Shown here: positions 7,919-38,456 of the stretch, in pieces
Layout: each line of letters begins with the position of its first letter
Position numbering within the stretch: the stretch's first letter is position 1
Origin: Virgibacillus sp. AGTR
GTDB taxonomy: Bacteria; Bacillota; Bacilli; Bacillales; Amphibacillaceae
Direction: 5' to 3'
Length of the DNA stretch: 44,729 nucleotides
Assembly (NCBI RefSeq): GCF_016919725.2
Contig: NZ_JAJERH010000036.1
Location: 1 to 44,729 of the forward strand
The notes under the pieces: model-generated
Databases searched by the model: none
Told to the model about the DNA's origin: nothing
Seen by the model: only the letters and a program-made list of their open reading frames with translations
Made by a program: the position numbers and the translations under genes

Positions 7919-8142
7919 TAAATTATAATAAGTATTGCTGTGATGAAGAGGAGTACTTTTTGTATTTATGTAAAGCGAATCCAGAATAGTGAAAGCTGGA
8001 TCATAAAGCAAATTGGAAGGGCGCTTCTGAGCGATTATAATAAAGTGGCTCATTTTCGTGATGAGCAAATAGGGTGGAACCGCGGCCTATCCCCGTCCCT
8101 ATGTCTAATAAAAAAGACATAGGGACGGGGATTTTGTCTTTT
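7919..8142 (+). promoter_or_regulatory. Glycine T-box riboswitch controlling glyQS
   Basis: Transcribed leader that senses uncharged tRNA-Gly. The T-box sequence AGGGTGGAACCGCG is at 8071-8084. The competing terminator has an 18-base stem (8089-8106 with 8115-8132) followed by a T-rich run to 8142. Stem I shows a box C/D-like kink-turn (TGATGA near 7942; CTGA near 8027), the AGTA loop-E strand, the AGCGA bulge, and an ATAGTGAA apical loop inside an ATCCAG/CTGGAT stem. By comparison with the O. iheyensis glyQ leader as I remember it (GAAGGC then ACTTC), the specifier codon is GGC at 8020-8022, matching tRNA-Gly(GCC). Low charged tRNA would stabilise the antiterminator and switch on glyQ-glyS. 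Confidence 0.93.
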
Positions 8143-22952: not shown

Positions 22953-23585
22953 TTGAGTGTTTTTGATTTGGAATGGATTGGAATCATTATTACTGGTTTT
23001 GCTACCTTGTTTTTAATTGGCGAAGTGCTTGTTAATATGCGTGGAATTTTTGCGTTATTAGGTATAGGTTTTATTACGGTATATTTTGGTGCCTATGTTG
23101 AAACAGGCTCGTTCATTATTATGCTTATTATTTATTTTGTAGGATTATTACTTATCATTATTGATGGAAAATTATTAAATGATGGAACACTTGCTACGAT
23201 TGGATTAGCTTGTATGTTAACAGCAGTAGCGTTGCCTGCGCCTAATTTAGCTTCTGGTTTATATGCTGTGCTTGGTGTACTGCTAGGTGGCGGAGCTTCA
23301 TTCTTTTTCTTAAAGGTATTTAAAAGAAGAGATATGTGGAATAAATTAACCTTAACAGATCAACTTACGCAGGAAGCAGGCTATAATTCCATGAATCAAA
23401 GCTATGAACAACTTTTAAATAAAGTGGGAGTAACACTAAACGATTTACGACCGGTAGGAACGATTCGCATTGAACAAAAGGACTATAGTGCTGTGTCAAA
23501 TGGTCAGTGGATTAGTAAAGATACAAAAGTAAAAGTAGTTCAAGTCGACGGAACGAAAATTTTAGTTGAAATAATAAATGGTTAG
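22953..23585 (+). CDS. NfeD-domain membrane protein
   Basis: A 210-residue membrane protein. Hydrophobic segments fill residues 8-125. A soluble C-terminal beta-barrel (about residues 150-210, LRPVGTIRIEQKDYSAVSNGQWISKDTKVKVVQVDGTKILVEI) is the OB-fold typical of NfeD proteins. NfeD proteins usually partner a flotillin or SPFH protein; none is next to this gene. The TTG start at 22953 follows AGGAGAGAGGGGGAG. The SigW-type promoter agrees with the B. subtilis nfeD genes (yuaF, yqeZ), which are in the SigW envelope-stress regulon. A terminator follows. Confidence 0.8.
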   Translation: MSVFDLEWIGIIITGFATLFLIGEVLVNMRGIFALLGIGFITVYFGAYVETGSFIIMLIIYFVGLLLIIIDGKLLNDGTLATIGLACMLTAVALPAPNLASGLYAVLGVLLGGGASFFFLKVFKRRDMWNKLTLTDQLTQEAGYNSMNQSYEQLLNKVGVTLNDLRPVGTIRIEQKDYSAVSNGQWISKDTKVKVVQVDGTKILVEIING

Positions 23586-23617
23586 TTGCTGAACGTGAAG
23601 ATAATCGACAAGATTTT

Positions 23618-23646
23618 AGATAATCTTAGAAAGATTATCTTTTTTA
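23618..23646 (+). terminator. Terminator after the NfeD gene (intron target)
   Basis: Perfect 10-base stem AGATAATCTT (23618-23627) and AAGATTATCT (23631-23640), a 3-base loop, then TTTTTATTT. The group II intron fragment begins directly after this T-run. Confidence 0.88.
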
Positions 23647-23649
23647 TTT

Positions 23650-23870
23650 GTGCGCCAGGCATGGCGACTATCTAGGTGGTGAAAGTCCGCTGTGAGGGTA
23701 CACATCAACCAACCACTAGAGAACCGCAAAGGTGTTTATCGTGAGGTGAAGGCTGAAGGAAGCGTGTATCAAAATCTTGGCTCGACGAACAGAAATCTGA
23801 TACCAAGGCTCTGTAGACGGACAAGGCTCCCAAACAAGCCAAAGTCCAAAAGATGTGCGTGATGAGCCGC
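23650..23870 (+). mobile_element. Truncated group IIC intron (domain I remnant)
   Basis: Begins with GTGCGCC, the typical group II 5' end, followed by GGCATGG, GGTGAAAGTCC, CTGTGAGG, ACCGCAAAGGTGT, CTGAAGGAAGCG, CGACGAACAGAA and AAAGTCC (ending 23847). These blocks occur in the same order as in domain I of the O. iheyensis group IIC intron, as I remember it. There is no reverse transcriptase and no full domain V or VI. A GATGAGCCG piece at 23861-23869 resembles a domain V 5' strand and may mark an internal deletion. The fragment sits exactly behind a terminator hairpin, the known insertion preference of class C introns. It cannot splice. Confidence 0.8.
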
Positions 23871-24016
23871 GTCGAGCTCCAGCGCCCAGAAACGAGGCGA
23901 ATTCACGAATCGCCCTAAGCTAAGTCATCATCGACTCGCAAGCTCACCGTGATTTCTTTATCTCCATTAACTCGCTCCAGTCGCTACGTTTCTAATCGGG
24001 CGCTAGCGCTTGTGTT
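23871..24016 (+). repeat. Dispersed intergenic repeat, copy A
   Basis: About 145 bases shared with 31483-31635 and 38306-38456. Shared blocks are AGCTCCAGCGCC, TTCACGAAT, AAGTCATCATC, AAGCTCACCGTGATTTC, TATCTCC and CTACGTTTCTAATCGGG. Its ends are complementary (AGCGCCC at 23881-23887; GGGCGCT at 23998-24004), so it can fold back. Unlike copies B and C it lacks the 5' TCTAGGAAATTAG segment; the intron remnant occupies that place. Confidence 0.8.
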
Positions 24017-24091
24017 CTTTTTGTTTATTTGTTCATCGCATGGAAAGCATGAAGTAGTAAATACTAAAAAGATCTATTAAATGTAGCTGAA

Positions 24092-24147
24092 TGTAAATTT
24101 AATGTTAAATATACCTTTTAAACCTTTACAAAAAGTTTATATATAAT
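24092..24147 (+). promoter_or_regulatory. PhoP-box-like repeats and promoter of the phosphate cotransporter
   Basis: Hexamers in the TT(A/T)ACA style occur at 11-base periods. On the minus strand they read at 24092-24097 and 24103-24108 (TGTAAA, TGTTAA); on the plus strand TTTACA is at 24125-24130 and TTTATA at 24136-24141. A perfect -10 TATAAT (24142-24147) follows immediately. The arrangement suggests activation by PhoP under phosphate limitation. Confidence 0.5.
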
Positions 24148-24202
24148 TAATATTGGTATGGTGTGACAAGATTCAACATGAATGGAAGGGTAGGTATAAA
24201 TT

Positions 24203-25828
24203 TTGGAAATTGATGTTCAAAAACTGATATTTGAATTTATCGGCGGACTGGGTATTTTCCTTCTTGGTATAAAGTTTATGGGAGAAGGGTTACAAAAGTC
24301 AGCAGGGGATCGTCTTAGAGATATACTGGATCGCTTTACAAGTAACCCATTTATGGGGGTATTAGCTGGTATTATCGTTACGGTTTTAATTCAAAGTAGC
24401 TCTGGTACTACTGTCTTAACAGTCGGTCTAGTAAACGCAGGCTTTATGACGTTAAGACAAGCAATTGGTGTAATTATGGGTGCTAATATAGGTACAACAG
24501 TTACTGCATTTATAATAGGTATTGATATTGGTGCTTATGCGCTACCGATCATTGCTGTAGGGTGTTTTCTATTATTTTTCTTTAAAAGTCAGAAAGTTAA
24601 TGCAGTTGGACAAGCAATCTTTGGATTTGGTGCATTATTCTTTGGATTAGAATTAATGAGTAGTGGTATGAAGCCATTGCGTACACTAGAAGCATTTCAT
24701 GAATTAACCGTTAATATGAGTGAAAACCCAGTTCTTGGTGTAGTTATCGGTACTGTCTTTACCGTTGTTGTACAGAGTTCAAGTGCCACAATAGGTATTT
24801 TACAAGGTCTATTTGCTGAAGGAGCAATAGAACTAAAGGCAGCCATACCCGTTCTTTTTGGAGATAACTTAGGAACGACAATAACTGCAGTGCTAGCATC
24901 TCTAGGTGCAACTGTTGCTGCAAAACGAGCAGCGTATACTCATGTAATCTTTAATTTAGTTGGAGCTACCATCTTTTTACTCCTACTTGGAGTTTTTACG
25001 CAAATTGTTACGTTTTTACAAGGACAGTTTAACTTGAACCCGGAGATGACAATTGCGTTTGCTCATGGGACCTTTAATATTACAAATACGATCATTCAAT
25101 TTCCATTTATAGGCGCTTTAGCTTGGTTAGTTACTAGGATTATTCCAGGTGAAGATACAATTGTAGAGTATAAACCACAACACTTAGATCCGATATTTAT
25201 TCAGCAATCATCGACCTTGGCATTAGATCAGGCGAAAGCAGAAGTGATTCGCATGGGTGAATATGCTTATAAAGGCTTAGAAGAAACAAATAAATATTTA
25301 AATACACAACTTTCTAAGCATTCCGAAATGGCTATGCAAATAGAAGGGGCTTTAAATAATCTGGACCGAAAAATAACAGATTATCTTGTAGAACTATCGG
25401 CAGAATCACTTACGGAAATAGAAAGTGCGAAACATTCCGCACTCCTTGACTCCGTTCGAGATATCGAAAGAATAGGCGATCATTTTGAAAATATTGTCGA
25501 ATTAATTGATTATAAAATGTCTAATAAAGTTCAATTAACCAATCATGCTCAGGAAGATCTAAATGAAATGTTTGAATTAACAACGTCAACAGTAAAACAA
25601 GCCGTTGAATCTCTCCAAAGTATGGACAGAGAAGAGGCACTAGCTGTGATTCAAAAAGAAGATAAAATTGATAAAATGGAAAGGAATTTCCGAAAGAAAC
25701 ATATCATTCGTATGAATGAAGGTAAATGTACTGGATCAGCTGGAATTGTTTTTGTTGATATCATTAGCAATTTAGAGCGAATTGGAGACCATGCGGTTAA
25801 CATTGCTGAAGAAGTATTAGGTGAATAA
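24203..25828 (+). CDS. Na+/phosphate cotransporter family protein (NptA-like)
   Basis: A 541-residue transporter of the Na/Pi cotransporter (NptA/YjbB, PF02690-type) family. The two inverted halves each carry the QSSS signature (IQSSSGTTVLTVG near residue 63 and VQSSSATIGILQG near 190). The C-terminal ~190 residues form a cytoplasmic PhoU-like helical domain (SVRDIERIGDHFENIVEL and ISNLERIGDHAVNIAEE). The likely role is sodium-driven phosphate uptake. The start is TTG 24203, with GGAAGGGTAGG upstream. PhoP-like boxes overlap the promoter. A terminator follows. It lies apart from phoU (31921), and no pst genes occur in the window. Confidence 0.88.
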   Translation: MEIDVQKLIFEFIGGLGIFLLGIKFMGEGLQKSAGDRLRDILDRFTSNPFMGVLAGIIVTVLIQSSSGTTVLTVGLVNAGFMTLRQAIGVIMGANIGTTVTAFIIGIDIGAYALPIIAVGCFLLFFFKSQKVNAVGQAIFGFGALFFGLELMSSGMKPLRTLEAFHELTVNMSENPVLGVVIGTVFTVVVQSSSATIGILQGLFAEGAIELKAAIPVLFGDNLGTTITAVLASLGATVAAKRAAYTHVIFNLVGATIFLLLLGVFTQIVTFLQGQFNLNPEMTIAFAHGTFNITNTIIQFPFIGALAWLVTRIIPGEDTIVEYKPQHLDPIFIQQSSTLALDQAKAEVIRMGEYAYKGLEETNKYLNTQLSKHSEMAMQIEGALNNLDRKITDYLVELSAESLTEIESAKHSALLDSVRDIERIGDHFENIVELIDYKMSNKVQLTNHAQEDLNEMFELTTSTVKQAVESLQSMDREEALAVIQKEDKIDKMERNFRKKHIIRMNEGKCTGSAGIVFVDIISNLERIGDHAVNIAEEVLGE

Positions 25829-26402: not shown

Positions 26403-26477
26403 TCCACAGTAGCTCAGTGGTAGAGCTATCGGCTGTTAACCGATCGGTCGTAGGTTCGAATCCTACCTGTGGAGCCA
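26403..26477 (+). tRNA. tRNA-Asn (GTT)
   Basis: Full cloverleaf with acceptor TCCACAG/CTGTGGA, anticodon loop CTGTTAA (GTT), a TTCGAAT T-loop and encoded CCA. First gene of the six-tRNA operon. Confidence 0.95.
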
Positions 26478-26481
26478 ATTT

Positions 26482-26558
26482 GGCGGTGTAGCTCAGCTGG
26501 CGAGAGCGTACGGTTCATACCCGTGAGGTCGGGGGTTCGATCCCCTCCGCCGCCACCA
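26482..26558 (+). tRNA. tRNA-Met (CAT), elongator type
   Basis: Full cloverleaf with acceptor GGCGGTG/CGCCGCC, anticodon CAT in loop TTCATAC, and encoded CCA. The paired first base and overall sequence fit elongator, not initiator, tRNA-Met. Confidence 0.9.
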
Positions 26559-26583
26559 TAATATAACAATTAATCTGAAGCAT

Positions 26584-26660
26584 GGCGGTCGTGGCGAAGT
26601 GGTTAACGCACCGGATTGTGGCTCCGGCATTCGTGGGTTCGATCCCCACCGGTCGCCCCA
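26584..26660 (+). tRNA. tRNA-His (GTG)
   Basis: Full cloverleaf, anticodon GTG in loop TTGTGGC, encoded CCA. The extra 5' G (26584) opposite C73 (26657) is the tRNA-His identity element. Confidence 0.95.
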
Positions 26661-26691
26661 TAAACAATTTTAAAATGAGAAGGACCCTTAG

Positions 26692-26758
26692 CTCAGTTGG
26701 TCAGAGCTATCGGCTCATAACCGATCGGTCGCAGGTTCGAGTCCTGCAGGGTCCACCA
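26692..26758 (+). tRNA. tRNA-Ile2 (CAT, lysidine type)
   Basis: Full cloverleaf with acceptor GGACCCT, encoded CCA and anticodon CAT in loop CTCATAA. The start GGACCCTTAGCTCAGTTGG and loop resemble the Ile2 type of B. subtilis and E. coli ileX, in which C34 becomes lysidine through TilS, so it reads AUA. A gene finder may label it Met. The end is read at CCA 26756-26758. Confidence 0.75.
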
Positions 26759-26769
26759 TAAAATTATTT

Positions 26770-26862
26770 GGAGGTATACCCAAGTCTGGCTGAAGGGAGC
26801 GGTCTTGAAAACCGCCAGGGGTGTAACAGCCCGCGGGGGTTCGAATCCCTCTACCTCCTCCA
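26770..26862 (+). tRNA. tRNA-Ser (TGA)
   Basis: A long-variable-arm tRNA with acceptor GGAGGTA/TACCTCC, anticodon TGA in loop CTTGAAA, and encoded CCA. The discriminator base reads T (26859), whereas Bacillus serine tRNAs normally carry G73. Confidence 0.92.
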
Positions 26863-26883
26863 TACATATTTAGAGTAGATTTA

Positions 26884-26959
26884 GGCTCGGTAGCTCAGTC
26901 GGTAGAGCAAGGGACTGAAAATCCCTGTGTCGGCGGTTCGATTCCGTCCCGAGCCACCA
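26884..26959 (+). tRNA. tRNA-Phe (GAA)
   Basis: Full cloverleaf with acceptor GGCTCGG/CCGAGCC, anticodon GAA in loop CTGAAAA, and encoded CCA. Last gene of the operon, followed by a terminator. Confidence 0.95.
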
Positions 26960-31421: not shown

Positions 31422-31425
31422 ATAC

Positions 31426-31635
31426 TCTAGGAAATTAGAGGAAATTAACAGTCCATATGTATAAATGTGGGCATGTTGTGCGGTGTCCAGCTCCAGCGCT
31501 GAGAAACGGTGGCGACTTCACGAATCGCCTTACGATATAAAGTCATCATCTGTTCGTAAGCTTACTGTGATTCCTTTATCTCCGTTGAATCGCTCCATTC
31601 GCTACGTTTTTAAATGGGCGCTTGCGTTTTGTTCT
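31426..31635 (+). repeat. Dispersed intergenic repeat, copy B
   Basis: Starts with TCTAGGAAATTAG directly after the pbpA terminator. It shares with copy C the stretch leading through GTTG to TCCAGCTCCAGC, and with copies A and C the body TTCACGAAT, AAGTCATCATC, CTGTGATT, TATCTCCGTTGA, CGCTACGTTT and GGGCGCTTGCG. Ends AGCGCT (31495-31500) and GGGCGCT (31616-31622) can pair. Confidence 0.8.
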
Positions 31636-31707
31636 CCCGCATATAACTGTCAGTAAGCCCCTAGTTTAAGCAATAAAGTAAACCCAATATGGATAAGTCG
31701 TGGATCT

Positions 31708-31817
31708 ATTGCTAGTACATGTCCGATTGGTTCAAAGGCCATTAGGTCAGACCCTTGTGGTACTAGCAATCAGTGGGGGATAAAACAAAAATCCCAAACT
31801 GATTGAAGTTTCACTTT
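31708..31817. repeat. Inverted repeats and decayed copy of the TTGAAGTTTCAC hairpin
   Basis: ATTGCTAGTA and TACTAGCAAT form an inverted repeat around about 31708-31770. Then AATCAGTGGGGGAT, AAAACAAAAATCCC, and a tail TTGAAGTTTCACTTTATA are seen. The tail and AAAACAAAA loop match the intact hairpin at 42059-42112, but the left arm is eroded here. Confidence 0.5.
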
Positions 31818-31852
31818 ATAAAATTTTACATGTAATTAACATTAAATCAATA
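31815..31852 (+). promoter_or_regulatory. PhoP-box-like repeats before phoU
   Basis: TTTATA (31815-31820), TTTACA (31825-31830) and TTAACA (31836-31841) occur with spacers of 4 and 5 bases, then a weaker TCAATA (31847-31852). This fits the PhoP binding pattern of TTAACA-type hexamers with about 11-base spacing. A TATAGA -10 candidate lies at 31878-31883, before phoU. Confidence 0.6.
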
Positions 31853-38258: not shown

Positions 38259-38456
38259 TCTAGGAAATTAGCCCATGTGATTAAATATGGGAGTGTTGAG
38301 CTAGCATCCAGCTCCAGCACCAAGAAGTTCCACTTCACGAATAGTCCTAATCTAAGTCATCATCGGCTCATAAGCTCACCGTGATTTCTATATCTCCGTT
38401 GACTCGCCCTAGGCAACGTTTCTAATCGGGGGCTTGCGCTCTTGTTTTATATATAA
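38259..38456 (+). repeat. Dispersed intergenic repeat, copy C
   Basis: Begins TCTAGGAAATTAG just behind the tatA terminator, as in copy B. The body matches A and B (TCCAGCTCCAGC, TTCACGAAT, AAGTCATCATC, AAGCTCACCGTGATTTC, TATCTCCGTTGACTCG, AACGTTTCTAATCGGG, GGCTTGCGCT). It is slightly shortened near 38320-38335 and 38405-38415. Confidence 0.8.

Follow-up and report, generated by a model that had tools for sequence, protein, structure and literature searches.

Probable dead composite of a group IIC intron remnant and an unrelated dispersed repeat behind the nfeD terminator of Virgibacillus sp. AGTR

Introns of group IIC, or class C, reportedly insert behind intrinsic terminators in Bacilli, a behavior attributed to the work of Robart, Seo and Zimmerly in 2007. 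PMC4424553 likewise gives class IIC introns a preference for sites behind such terminators. Two kinds of dispersed repeat are also close to the elements described here. The mobility of bcr repeats is linked to TTTAT motifs in PMC6542083. The REP/REPIN elements, which are palindromic, structured, and multicopy, are moved by RAYT (Y1) transposases. The intron fragment at the present locus agreed with the known group IIC introns of Bacilli in the sequence and order of domain I, in its 5' end GTGCGCC, in having close relatives that bear a reverse transcriptase (RT), and in standing likewise behind a hairpin and T-run, and it differed from them in keeping domain I alone. It is one of several relics of a single intron lineage, distinguished by a fusion at a microhomology to a repeat, termed REP1 in this study, that shares its landing preference. 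The 3' part of the intron and its RT would have been lost in a deletion that reached into this neighboring repeat and removed part of it as well.

The window, a 44,729-nt stretch of Virgibacillus sp. AGTR DNA, is located on contig C146 of a draft genome (G000) of 4,708,499 bases in 215 contigs. The features of the locus are collected in Table 1. Positions 23650-24018 very probably represent two elements that share a single terminator and now form one dead composite.

Table 1. Features at the intron-repeat locus of the window
Feature	Position	Strand	Basis
Upstream gene, 210 aa, NfeD C-terminal domain	22953..23585	+	ORF list; Pfam PF01957, E 2.9e-14
Intrinsic-terminator-like hairpin and T-run, intron landing site (5' exon)	23597..23649	+	Fold; hairpin plus T-run test
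5' 211 nt of group IIC intron (domain I)	23650..23860	+	RF02001; 97% identity to C37; alignment with four intact relatives
Junction GCGT, common to intron (GATGTGCGTAAC) and REP1 (ATGGGCGTG)	23857..23860	+	Alignments
Dispersed repeat REP1, remainder, 5' part missing	23861..24018	+	nhmmer; other genome matches; fold
Terminator-like 3' end of REP1 (hairpin plus T-run)	23997..24022	+	Pattern scan: 2 overlapping sites versus shuffle mean of 0.3
Downstream gene, 541 aa, Na/Pi cotransporter with PhoU domain	24203..25828	+	ORF list; PF02690 and PF01895

The domain I blocks of a group IIC intron, which an earlier note had read from the letters alone, were all found in the correct order from GTGCGCC at 23650. 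The Rfam covariance search and the search for a parent copy that it had proposed both returned matches. RF02001 (group-II-D1D4-3) matched positions 23735-23897 at 72.5 bits, against a gathering threshold of 32 and with an E value of 1.1e-12, and it was the sole group II family to reach its gathering threshold in the whole window. The posterior of this match drops past approximately 23850. Domain I of the intact relatives scored 90.2 to 140.4 bits with the same model, the highest value being that of an intron on contig C37 of the same genome, which is 97% identical to the window over exactly 23650-23860. The C37 intron is 650 nt long, with both ends present and no RT. The intron stretch of the window therefore measures 211 nt, somewhat more than the approximately 198 nt first assumed. 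When the window, C37, two relatives, and a plasmid intron were aligned, all five reached ..GATGTGCGT, and the window alone departed after it.

The fossil state of the fragment was also borne out, with domains II to VI and the RT missing. A search of 23550-24150 against Rfam at E values up to 5 returned RF02001 only, the domain V model RF00029 being absent, and the ORF list contained no reverse transcriptase ORF at the locus. Lacking domain V and RT, the remnant cannot splice or move by itself. As a group IIC intron fossil the stretch is ordinary and of a kind already known, and in itself it adds one more dated relic of a terminator-seeking retroelement.

The fragment was found directly behind the terminator of the NfeD gene, as proposed, with the hairpin and T-run adjoining the intron start. 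Positions 23594-23649 fold at -13.2 kcal/mol, with 2/200 shuffles as good, and the T-run TTTTTTATTT closes the pre-intron sequence. In the hairpin plus T-run test, in which a hairpin of -6 kcal/mol or better and a T-run ending at the element start count as a pass, the intron start of the window gave -11.4 kcal/mol. The hairpin at 23597..23649 was not listed by the built-in terminator scan, which requires three G-C pairs. Using one script for introns of this genome, its relatives, and the plasmid, 14 of 15 intron 5' ends, the window included, were located behind a hairpin and T-run. The failing one (L028 in G005, -3.2) comes after the 3' end of a second repeat, REP2, as judged by eye. Five exact strings from the intron blocks gave zero matches in the region downstream of nfeD in seven relatives of the same genus, indicating an insertion limited to this species or its lineage.

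A 521-nt query containing intron and repeat matched 28/61 genomes by one part or both, and domain I was matched at 83 to 92% in G010, G043, G009, G006, G013, G033, G005, G031, and G003; several of the introns in these nine genomes continue into RT reading frames, as judged by eye. Among plasmids, 333 records matched the 211 nt, 24 of them at a coverage of at least 80%, with the best matches in Lysinibacillus capsici (87.7%) and Peribacillus frigoritolerans (85.8%). The intron on the L. capsici plasmid pFN9D has an annotated ltrA with RVT_1 and GIIM domains, together with Rfam matches for domain I, RF01998, and RF00029. An Rfam match to the ncr1575 sRNA was observed upstream of the plasmid intron (L129, 1924-2135, minus strand).

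Other relics of the lineage were detected in the same genome. On C177, intron nucleotides 1-95 are joined to 321-650, and the deletion edges carry GTTTATCGTGAG, which by eye is repeated in the intact intron. Behind a strong terminator, C152 carries a mini-intron of approximately 70 nt (L142, 642-710), which retains 35 nt from the 5' end and 48 nt from the 3' end. Shorter relics were aligned on C15 (47 nt, 5' end) and C150 (81 nt, 3' end). No GIIM maturase match was obtained in the 215-contig draft. The one RVT_1 ORF of the genome (626 aa, C150:110197-110937, minus strand) had no GIIM match and only subthreshold HNH matches, and it is therefore not the partner found in the relatives; it is possibly a member of another group II class. 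An RT-bearing copy of the intron could be missing from the 215-contig assembly, in which C37 starts 2 bases before the intron.

From 23849 to 24018 the window follows REP1, a repeat matched in at least 39 other places in the genome among the best 40 of 222 candidates; these 39 made up all but two of 41 matches, the others being the window itself and C37. None of the REP1 matches listed extends into the intron part beyond query position 198, corresponding to 23837 of the window. With nhmmer, the copy was matched at 23849-24017 (E 4.7e-56; profile positions 36-204 of 205), where 23849-23860 is an overlap by similarity and the sequence belonging to REP1 itself begins at 23861. The first ~48 nt of the repeat are lacking, among them the 5' box that other copies have directly behind a terminator. 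The GCGT microhomology lies within a longer imperfect similarity of intron and REP1. Homology of the two around the junction (AGCCAAAGTCCAAAAGATGTGCGT versus AGCCCAAGTGGATAAAGATGGGCGTG) was considered, but chance is likelier, as this part of REP1 varies from copy to copy in other genera.

These alignments bear directly on the piece GATGAGCCG near 23861, which had been taken for a possible relic of domain V left by an internal deletion of the intron. Its GAGCCG resembles the starts of many domain V sequences, which speaks for that reading, as does the existence of internally deleted copies of the same intron on C177 and C152. The repeat alignment nevertheless refutes it: the piece belongs to REP1, other copies of which read GTGTTGAGCCGCGTCC or GTGTTGAGCCG at this spot, no intron 3' end is present downstream, and RF00029 gave no match on 23550-24150 up to an E value of 5. 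A leftover domain V in an internally deleted intron is thus highly improbable, and the deletion would instead start where domain I ends, pass the 3' end of the intron, and extend into REP1. What looks like a scrap of domain V at the edge of a deletion can belong to a different element.

Positions 23872-24018 fold at -45.9 kcal/mol (z -3.73), with 0/200 shuffles as good. The whole 377-nt composite folds no better than its shuffles (z 0.06), which fits a dead composite yet gives no support to it. Searched as a pattern, the fusion had 0 occurrences in a genome-contig collection from which the genome of the window was possibly left out, as expected for a single local event. The fold of the REP1 part and the good preservation of domain I, at 97% to C37, would be compatible with retention of the fragment as a functional RNA, for instance in regulating read-through or as a domain I acting in trans. 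Such a role is hardly credible given that GIIM maturase matches are absent from the genome, that domain I is placed behind a terminator, that the composite folds at shuffle level, and that it was not found elsewhere, the siblings included.

REP1 was characterized further as a family. The full unit of approximately 205 nt extends from about TAGTCTAGGAAATTATAAAATT to GCGCTTTTGTTCT, with a conserved 5' box of about TAGNNTAGGAAATTATAAAATTTG, often followed by TGTGGATAA. A census with a profile built from 16 copies, some of which were also among the census copies, gave 22 matches in 425,631 bases of this genome; scaled up proportionally, this would correspond to approximately 240 copies genome-wide. 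In the class as a whole, REP1 was found by covariance model in 15 of 299 genomes (E 1e-5), and its distribution is therefore patchy; carriers named by pattern were Calidifontibacillus oryziterrae, Virgibacillus litoralis, and Aquibacillus koreensis. The plasmid collection gave no REP1 match, and no Rfam family matched the REP1 part of 23550-24150 at E values up to 5. Among the titles and abstract openings searched, also with REP1 letter strings, no description of the repeat was recognized, which does not establish its absence from print.

When 20 copies were aligned, taken from this genome and from others, 94.7% of the cells of the REP1 structure paired. Two-sided changes were counted in 51 cells, a number reached by 0/500 shuffles, compared to a shuffle mean of 19.0 and to at most 7 in slid controls. 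Other measures were weaker, with 10 pairs showing two-sided change (reached by 10/500 shuffles), 25 further pair types (112/500), and a small RNAalifold covariation term of -1.75. REP1 is accordingly a structured, covarying element, the folded form being RNA or single-stranded DNA. REP1 bodies were also observed in close tandem, the extra units being without the 5' box, at G202 C6:266112-266468, G198 C1:2824925-2825225, and G096 C1:354425-354855.

The 5' starts of REP1 were located behind a hairpin and T-run in 12 of 20 census copies and failed the test in 8, after two of the 22 matches without a 5' end (the window copy and C161:12695) had been dropped. The controls were far lower, at 0/20 for the 3' side on the opposite strand, 39/2000 for random positions, and 7/321 for positions 20 to 200 nt behind long ORFs. 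In other Bacilli, the test was passed by 22 of the 31 copies that retain a 5' end (21/30 without the duplicate, L043 and L125 being one copy, and with seven rows lacking the 5' part dropped), compared to 3/31 on the 3' side. The link between REP1 and terminators is strong but not absolute. Two further REP1 copies of the window, on the plus strand at 31425-31633 and 38261-38446, also start downstream of a hairpin and T-run, at -15.8 and -9.0 kcal/mol. In two same-genus relatives, L061 (G007) and L065 (G005), the intergenic region behind nfeD likewise holds a REP1 copy, on the opposite strand and preceded by a terminator of its own.

Like the bcr1-type repeats of Bacillus described in PMC6542083, PMC3733652, and PMC2267715, REP1 is short, multicopy, structured, and intergenic where seen, with no coding capacity noticed. 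It is set apart from bcr1, by the description in PMC6542083, in being tied to intrinsic terminators and in its conserved 5' box. REP1 also shares the palindromic, structured, and multicopy nature of the RAYT-linked REP/REPIN elements, but is approximately 205 nt long, and G021 carries it without any Y1 match. A Y1/RAYT transposase is not supported as the mover of REP1. Y1 was found in 52/61 genomes. Seven Y1 matches were obtained in the own genome, all five of those listed containing stops, and 12 Y1 loci had no REP1 inside. G004, which has neither Y1 nor a match to the 521-nt query, would fit the Y1 idea. No mover of REP1 was identified among these comparisons.

It may tentatively be proposed, at slightly less than even confidence, that REP1 represents a family, so far without a name, of mobile elements of Bacilli that are structured and non-coding and that insert directly behind intrinsic terminators as group IIC introns do, yet have no intron features. 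The 5' box would mark the insertion side, and further elements could land at the terminator-like 3' end, with introns and repeats accumulating behind one gene; the junction in the window would then be a by-product of two elements competing for one pad. More interesting than the fossil is the use of the same terminator sites in one genome by a group IIC intron and an unrelated structured repeat. If REP1 truly targets terminators, these would be a general safe harbor open to mobile DNA of several kinds, and the mechanism of REP1, whose copies are estimated in the hundreds, would become directly testable.

Arrangements elsewhere in the genome bear on the history of the composite. On C177 the order is terminator, internally deleted intron, intron end CTACTCGAT, REP1-like 5' box TTAGGAAGGTATATAATTTG, and REP1 body, the REP1 itself being incomplete and the box match judged by eye. 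On C152 the mini-intron is located between the terminator and a REP1-like box TAAGTTAAGAAAGTATAAAATC that fronts another repeat body, and on C37 the intron is followed by REP2. Introns therefore do sit between terminators and REP1-like elements in this genome. The bases before (TTTTTTATAA) and after (TTAGGAAGG) the C177 intron jointly resemble, by eye, one REP1 start, which favors REP1 having come first. Both parents, the junction, and the terminator were directly observed, as was, at another place in the genome, the intact order of terminator, intron, and REP1.

The simplest and likeliest history for the window is REP1 first, then intron insertion into the T-run, then deletion. REP1 would already have stood, or come to stand, directly behind the nfeD terminator, and the group IIC intron would have entered the T-run by reverse splicing and reverse transcription, as suggested by its class. 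Slipped pairing or illegitimate recombination would afterwards have joined GATGTGCGT, where domain I ends, to ATGGGCGTG in REP1, deleting domains II to VI and any RT together with the 3' end of the intron and the first ~48 nt of the repeat. The order of insertion we infer, as we do the deletion itself, which is deduced from its two parents since an undeleted ancestor of the locus was not found. In an assembly of 215 contigs, a misjoin at 23860 is conceivable.

Conversely, the intron may have come first, REP1 having inserted into or recombined with an already truncated copy, with the junction as the insertion point. The position of the junction at a short shared motif is compatible with this, and the locus keeps no record of the order of events. 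The copy in the window is without the 5' box, whereas 20/22 census matches retain the 5' end; census copies are found behind terminators and not within introns; and C177 has an intron directly ahead of a REP1-like box. An intron-first origin is accordingly considered unlikely, and insertion of the intron ahead of REP1 is preferred.

REP2 starts with TTTATCCCGCATATAA and ends with CACTTTAT, with TTTAT at both the beginning and the end. It was located at 31632-31818 of the window (plus strand), C139:39667-40499, C145:6717-7391, and L002 650-835, sometimes in tandem with a spacing of approximately 153 to 154 bp, and at 31632 directly after REP1. It is not supported as another terminator-bound element, with 3/27 copies passing the test after 6 of 33 BLAST rows with a missing 5' end had been dropped. 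By its TTTAT ends it resembles the bcr elements as PMC6542083 describes them. The body of a third element (TAAGTTAAGAAAGTATAAAATCAGTGCAATG...) with a REP1-like 5' box was observed behind the C152 mini-intron (L142) and downstream of REP1 in L008, L013, and L017. Elsewhere in the window, six consecutive tRNA matches (26403-26956) and a T-box leader (7931-8103) were detected, both ordinary.
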